Shown here one piece after another: positions 27,199-27,558 of a DNA stretch of 32,429 nucleotides. Position 1 is the stretch's first letter; each line of letters starts with the position of its first letter. Made by a program: the position numbers and the translations under genes. This stretch comes from Candidatus Poribacteria bacterium (GTDB lineage: Bacteria; Poribacteria; WGA-4E; PCPOR2b), in the NCBI GenBank assembly GCA_022567695.1, contig JADFGN010000015.1:1-32429 (forward strand). Reading direction: 5' to 3'. The notes under the pieces were generated by a model. It did not search any database. It was given only the letters and a program-made list of their open reading frames with translations, and had not been told where the DNA came from.

Positions 27199-27558
27199 AT
27201 GAGAACACTTGTACTTGCCAACCTATTTCTTGCTGTTTTATTATTTTTGGCGAGTTGTACAAACTCACCGAAGAAGGCAGAATCACAAACACCCTCACCG
27301 GAGAAAAAGCAGCCGGTGACAATACAGACAGTGACGCTTGACATCGAAGGAATTACTTGAGGAGGCTGTGTCACCACAGTGCAGTCTGCACTGGAAAAAG
27401 TTCCCGGCGTTTCTTTGGTTCAAGTCGATATGGCAACGAACCGGGCGGTCGTCCAAATTGAAAAAGGAAAGACAACGCCGGCTGGACTTGTAAAGGCCGT
27501 TGATGATATTGAGAACATACGCGACTATCGTGCGACCGTGCTTAGCGTGTGGCCGTAG
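27199..27558 (+). CDS. candidate selenoprotein: lipoprotein with heavy-metal-associated (HMA) domain, UGA read as Sec at codon 54
   Basis: Translation MRTLVLANLFLAVLLFLASCTNSPKKAESQTPSPEKKQPVTIQTVTLDIEGIT(U)GGCVTTVQSALEKVPGVSLVQVDMATNRAVVQIEKGKTTPAGLVKAVDDIENIRDYRATVLSVWP*. TGA 27358-27360 is at the first Cys of GMTCxxC; RBS GAGGAAGA; lipobox LASC; SECIS-like hairpin downstream. Confidence 0.8.
27375..27394 (+). promoter_or_regulatory. bacterial SECIS-like hairpin
   Basis: CAGTGCA (27377-27383) - GTC loop - TGCACTG (27387-27393), extended by C27375-G27394 across a bulged A; loop begins with G 23 nt after the TGA. Confidence 0.7.

Follow-up and report, generated by a model that had tools for sequence, protein, structure and literature searches.

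A predicted bacterial SECIS hairpin after an in-frame UGA in a family of putative HMA-domain selenoprotein lipoproteins

Both the bacterial SECIS (bSECIS) consensus and the SECIS of E. coli fdhF place a hairpin within the coding sequence just after the UGA, with a G in the loop, and the bSECIS model sets four published constraints, on loop, stem, spacing and minimum free energy (MFE), within all of which the element described here falls (PMC13188914). Selenoproteins of the HMA type are already known: NCBIfam NF041115 (UxxU_metal_bind; metal-binding (seleno)protein) carries selenocysteine (Sec) in the metal motif of an HMA-like domain, NF045683 (MerT/CopZ fusion-like heavy metal transport selenoprotein) contains a CopZ/HMA-like domain, and certain cation ATPases are heavy-metal proteins with a UxxC motif (PMC13188914).

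We analysed a stretch of 32,429 nucleotides from Candidatus Poribacteria (contig JADFGN010000015.1), hereafter denoted the window, in which the following features surround an in-frame UGA:

27185–27191, + strand: Shine–Dalgarno-like GAGGAAG, 7 nt 5′ of the ATG (putative, by inspection)
27199–27558, + strand: putative selenoprotein gene, 119 aa; ORF with TGA read as U, comprising lipoprotein signal, linker, HMA domain with UGGC motif, and TAG stop
27247–27258, + strand: putative lipobox LASC, with the candidate lipidated Cys at residue 20 (from the translation, by inspection)
27334–27507, + strand: HMA domain (residues 46–103), Pfam HMA match
27358–27360, + strand: in-frame UGA, putative Sec (residue 54) at the first position of UxxC; an HMA Cys position, and UGA in relatives
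27377–27393, + strand: apical hairpin of the predicted bSECIS; arms CAGTGCA (27377–27383) and TGCACTG (27387–27393), loop GTC (27384–27386)

With the UGA taken as a residue, the ORF at 27199–27558 translates as MRTLVLANLFLAVLLFLASCTNS...VTLDIEGIT-U-GGCVTTVQSALEKVPGV..., with an N-terminal signal peptide and the LASC lipobox recognised by inspection. The Pfam HMA profile (PF00403) matches at 47.6 bits (gathering cut-off 24.8; E=2.2e-12) and spans the UGA unbroken, placing it where the CxxC metal site has its first Cys; read as a stop, the UGA leaves a 53-aa product from which nearly all of the HMA domain is missing. Relatives by sequence with solved structures are metal-binding domains of copper ATPases and MerP. 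A scan of a contig collection with the protein brought up three relatives and no more, all of them weak (Bacteroidetes, Flavobacteriales, Pseudobutyrivibrio). Gene content includes PhyH-like and GFO/IDH/MocA genes, which is suggestive of candidate phylum Poribacteria, and the same genome holds a paralog on contig 439, a second UGA-HMA lipoprotein with the motif GMT-U-GAC (L026:1483–1842, − strand).

The preliminary description placed a SECIS-like hairpin at 27375–27394 and gave it a perfect 7-bp stem with G as the first loop base, 23 nt past the UGA. The hairpin is present and each of these structural details is borne out by the sequence, with 23 nt between the UGA (27358–27360) and the loop G; only the span was drawn 1–2 nt too wide. 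The RNAfold check proposed for it returned the same stem in every folding window tried. A loop of 3 nt and a stem of 7 bp lie within the bSECIS ranges of 3–9 nt and 4–16 bp (upper stem), the loop GTC has its G within the first two positions, where the rule expects a following G or U in most cases, and the UGA-to-loop distance of 23 nt is within the permitted 16–37 nt. The MFE, −12.4 to −14.2 kcal/mol for 40–51 nt, is likewise inside the bSECIS limit of at most −7.5. Against shuffles, this folding energy does not stand out (z 0 to −1.4), and it is ordinary for the base composition, and an Rfam search of 27000–27700 gave no match. Of the 1254 TGA triplets on both strands of the window, 6 (0.5%) are followed by an all-Watson–Crick 7-bp stem that conforms to the SECIS rules on loop and spacing, and 92 (7%) by such a stem when G-U pairs are permitted; redrawing the codons of the window gene with its protein held fixed gives a 7-bp stem with loop G by chance in 0.5% of cases. 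The hairpin of the window gene is thus, by itself, moderately unlikely and would not settle the question. Since a single hairpin at these frequencies is not decisive, it is the evidence from relatives that decides.

The core of the element had also been described as strikingly close to that of E. coli fdhF, which was given as GCAGGTCTGC. That sequence is correct, being present in 5403 of 5426 E. coli genomes with annotated fdhF among the matches listed, and the two elements share GCA..TGC at the top of the stem. The fdhF SECIS differs in its 4-nt loop (GGUC), as opposed to 3 nt in the window element, and in its spacing of 18 nt (counted on the fold) rather than 23. The resemblance is real but minor: the loop is GTC in 26 of 123 relatives as against GGA in 76, so that what is conserved is the stem together with a G followed by G or U, not the fdhF sequence. 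G is the first loop base in 123/123 and the second is G or T in 122/123. The window element further differs from the bSECIS consensus and fdhF in that its sequence is near-frozen across one phylum.

A homolog of the window protein occurs in 84 of 87 genomes of the same phylum, the best matches mostly carrying exactly one in-frame TGA, and 136 distinct UGA-HMA elements were extracted from the relatives' loci in dozens of genomes. These bear on the possibility that the UGA arose by simple nonsense mutation, or reflects a sequencing error, in a dying gene, as a single UGA interrupting an otherwise intact domain might suggest. The codon is UGA throughout these 136 elements and the frame 3′ of it stays open and conserved, which refutes that explanation and leaves it a negligible probability.

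A different objection is that the hairpin is a by-product of the protein, the residues V-Q-x-A-L being conserved in HMA domains and encoded by a near-palindrome by chance; indeed, the encoded residues dictate several of the stem bases (Val GT-, Gln CA-, Ala GC-). The third-position choices GTG, CAG and GCA are, however, near-invariant only at the hairpin. There, Val+7 is GTG in 135/136, Gln+8 is CAG in 125/125 (with Arg CGG in 10), Ala+10 is GCA in 134/134 and Leu+11 is CTN in 136/136, whereas outside it, in the same genes, GTG is used for Val+14 in 1/115 and for Val+17 in 13/131, and GCA for other downstream Ala codons in 22/232. All synonyms are used for the same residues elsewhere in the UGA-HMA genes, and the synonymous constraint is confined to the hairpin. 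Relatedness alone is insufficient to account for the conservation of the hairpin, given the free variation at synonymous sites elsewhere in these genes. Of the 123 unique UGA-HMA elements, 109 retain a 6-bp stem and loop G; resampling that left the proteins unchanged and drew codons from the same genes gave an expectation of 1.3/123, with a maximum of 6 in 300 runs. Loss of the stem in orthologs that keep the UGA, which the preliminary description had named as evidence against its reading, is therefore not what the relatives exhibit.

Secondary structure was also assessed on a divergent set of 49 elements with pairwise differences at >6 of 54 bases. RNAalifold recovered exactly a 6-bp stem and a 3-nt loop; with the arms in register 90.7% of cells paired, compared with 14–49% when slid, and the covariation score of 0.143 was greater than in all 500 shuffles. 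The count of pairs with two-sided change was not above shuffles in this set, because four core pairs hardly vary, and formal covariation is modest. The seventh, outermost pair, formed in the window gene, is present in 26 of the 49. Compensatory changes occur: in seven elements (CGG..TCC or GCC/ACC) an A-U pair at the top of the stem has become G-C, the outermost pair has changed in this way several times, and L102 (GTA..GTA) has A-U for G-C, the pair there being kept through an Ala to Val replacement together with GTG to GTA, a combination that speaks against the protein as the source of the hairpin. In L100 (506–553), a second in-frame stop (TAG) occupies the Gln codon within the SECIS stem, and the hairpin is kept.

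Cys-coding homologs provide the complementary comparison, as protein constraint alone would be expected to preserve the hairpin in them; such preservation was the other finding that the preliminary description had named as counting against its reading, and it is not seen. The full stem with loop G occurs in 0/19 distinct Cys-coding HMA sites, including Cys repeats inside UGA genes (109/123 with UGA), in line with the bSECIS expectation that the element is kept with UGA and lost with a Cys codon; one Cys site has six pairs but an A in the loop. Cys repeats still form 2–5 of the 6 pairs, as a protein by-product would predict. In the mixed UGA/Cys tandem genes L058, L061, L065, L069 and L105, the Cys repeats lack one or more of the pairs, for instance where GTG is replaced by GTA or GTT, or GAT by GAC. 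The independent Cys events inside tandem genes are few, perhaps three or four. At the sequence level, codon constraint, resampling, the Cys homologs and L102 together refute the protein by-product explanation, which we consider very improbable. The hairpin is under selection at the RNA level and is linked to the UGA. With >100 elements at one fixed spacing, the family is an unusually clean natural test of the bSECIS rules, in which single genes holding both Sec and Cys repeats supply matched controls.

Genes for the Sec machinery are present in the source genome, a 7.3 Mb draft of 733 contigs (91% complete). Contig 238 encodes a tRNA-Sec (76 bits, over the cut-off, with ARAGORN in agreement), a full-length selB (367 bits) immediately upstream of it and, as the only trace of selA, a C-terminal stub cut off at the start of the contig. 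With selD (338 bits, contig 43), the genome thus holds SelB, tRNA-Sec and SelD, the set looked for under the bSECIS scheme. selD itself has an in-frame UGA at ECAGUASK (L133 near 1528) with a G-loop hairpin (GGG loop) 17 nt downstream, and is a putative second kind of selenoprotein in this genome. Across the phylum, tRNA-Sec is over the cut-off in 78 of 87 genomes; the 9 with none over it are all drafts, and in 2 of these a copy lies beside selB, truncated at a contig end in G079 and interrupted in G062. The G062 copy (L137 near 3457–3540) is broken in the T-loop after GGGTTCG and followed by an apparent coding region, with mis-assembly, insertion or real loss as candidate causes.

The machinery also weighs against recoding of the UGA to something other than Sec, for example read-through by a near-cognate tRNA aided by the hairpin. 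The genes for tRNA-Sec and SelB are neighbours, selD also contains an in-frame UGA, and a Cys position is what the UGA occupies in every case, so we regard that explanation as extremely improbable. The earlier proposal that the element supports Sec insertion, not a simple nonsense mutation, agrees with the retention of the stem alongside UGA, its absence from the Cys sites and the machinery in the genome. On these comparisons, the hairpin is very probably a bSECIS, with the UGA read as Sec in the HMA metal motif of a surface lipoprotein.

We infer SelB binding, Sec insertion, lipidation and a metal function in the following scheme. On the mRNA, SelB carrying Sec-tRNA-Sec would recognise the apical loop with its leading G and supply the ribosome with Sec at the UGA, which lies 23 nt upstream of the loop; read-through would then yield the full 119-aa lipoprotein, not the 53-aa stub without the domain. 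This envelope lipoprotein would have U-G-G-C, not C-x-x-C, as its HMA metal site, and the selenolate there might tighten the binding of a soft metal ion such as Hg or Cu, a redox role being less likely. The HMA domain and selenolate chemistry tip the balance towards a metal-binding role for the lipoprotein. If the selenoprotein is made, its UxxC could alternatively be a redox centre and not a metal site, as most known UxxC selenoproteins are thought to be redox proteins (PMC13188914). The domain, however, is HMA, with copper and mercury carriers as its solved relatives, and not thioredoxin-like, and the runs of as many as four UGA domains found in some relatives suit binding capacity; we consider a redox function rather unlikely.

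Amongst the described HMA proteins, the window protein differs from NF041115 in having UxxC rather than UxxU (54.3 bits, cut-off 95) and in being a predicted lipoprotein with a linker. It lacks the MerT membrane part of NF045683 (MerT_CopZ_Se), to which only its CopZ-like part aligned (51.4 bits, cut-off 375), and, as a stand-alone lipoprotein with no ATPase, it differs from the UxxC cation ATPases. The MerP (TIGR02052) and CopZ metallochaperones share the single HMA domain, MerP also acting outside the cytoplasm, but have Cys where the window protein has its putative Sec, and the window protein falls below the family cut-offs (51.5 bits against 92.55 for MerP TIGR02052). As NF041115 and NF045683 were matched only below their cut-offs, the protein appears to be a new branch among HMA selenoproteins. 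The open-access literature yielded no report of HMA selenoproteins in such bacteria or of bacterial multi-Sec metallochaperones. Annotation with UGA as a stop would cut the whole gene family near codon 54 and miss it.

The most unusual part of the findings is the presence in relatives of tandem arrays with 3–4 UGA-HMA repeats. L065 and L066 each encode 4 UGA and 1 Cys HMA repeats in a single ORF, L058, L061 and L069 each have 3 UGA and 1 Cys repeats, and L105 has 3 UGA and 2 Cys repeats; most such ORFs also carry 1–2 Cys repeats. The in-frame UGA codons are ~210–230 nt apart, each then followed by the same SECIS-like hairpin. Probably, the window gene is one of a much-duplicated family of HMA selenoprotein lipoproteins, spread throughout the phylum, from which tandem multi-Sec metal-binding proteins with a SECIS for each site have arisen. 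A 2026 review gives 2–3 Sec per bacterial protein at most (PMC13188914), a number that these candidate multi-Sec proteins appear to exceed; they may be likened to animal selenoprotein P, which likewise contains several Sec. If the arrays are fully translated, bacterial ribosomes would recode UGA 3–4 times per message, each time with its own signal, and the arrays would be an indication that the cell envelope binds metals by means of selenium.

No mer genes were seen next to the window gene, nor a metal-resistance operon in the gene neighbourhoods of relatives, one of which includes a cation-efflux-like gene (by eye). One family (L122, L123, L125, L127 and L132) has a conserved UGA-HMA neighbourhood that is not a metal operon and includes GIY-YIG-like nuclease, PhyH-like and glycosyltransferase-like genes (by eye). 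In L122 (6506–7003, − strand) and L125 (6756–7250, − strand), a third lipoprotein with an HMA-like start lies beside the UGA-HMA pair; it reads GMTR or GMPR, without the UxxC motif, and is possibly a degenerate copy.
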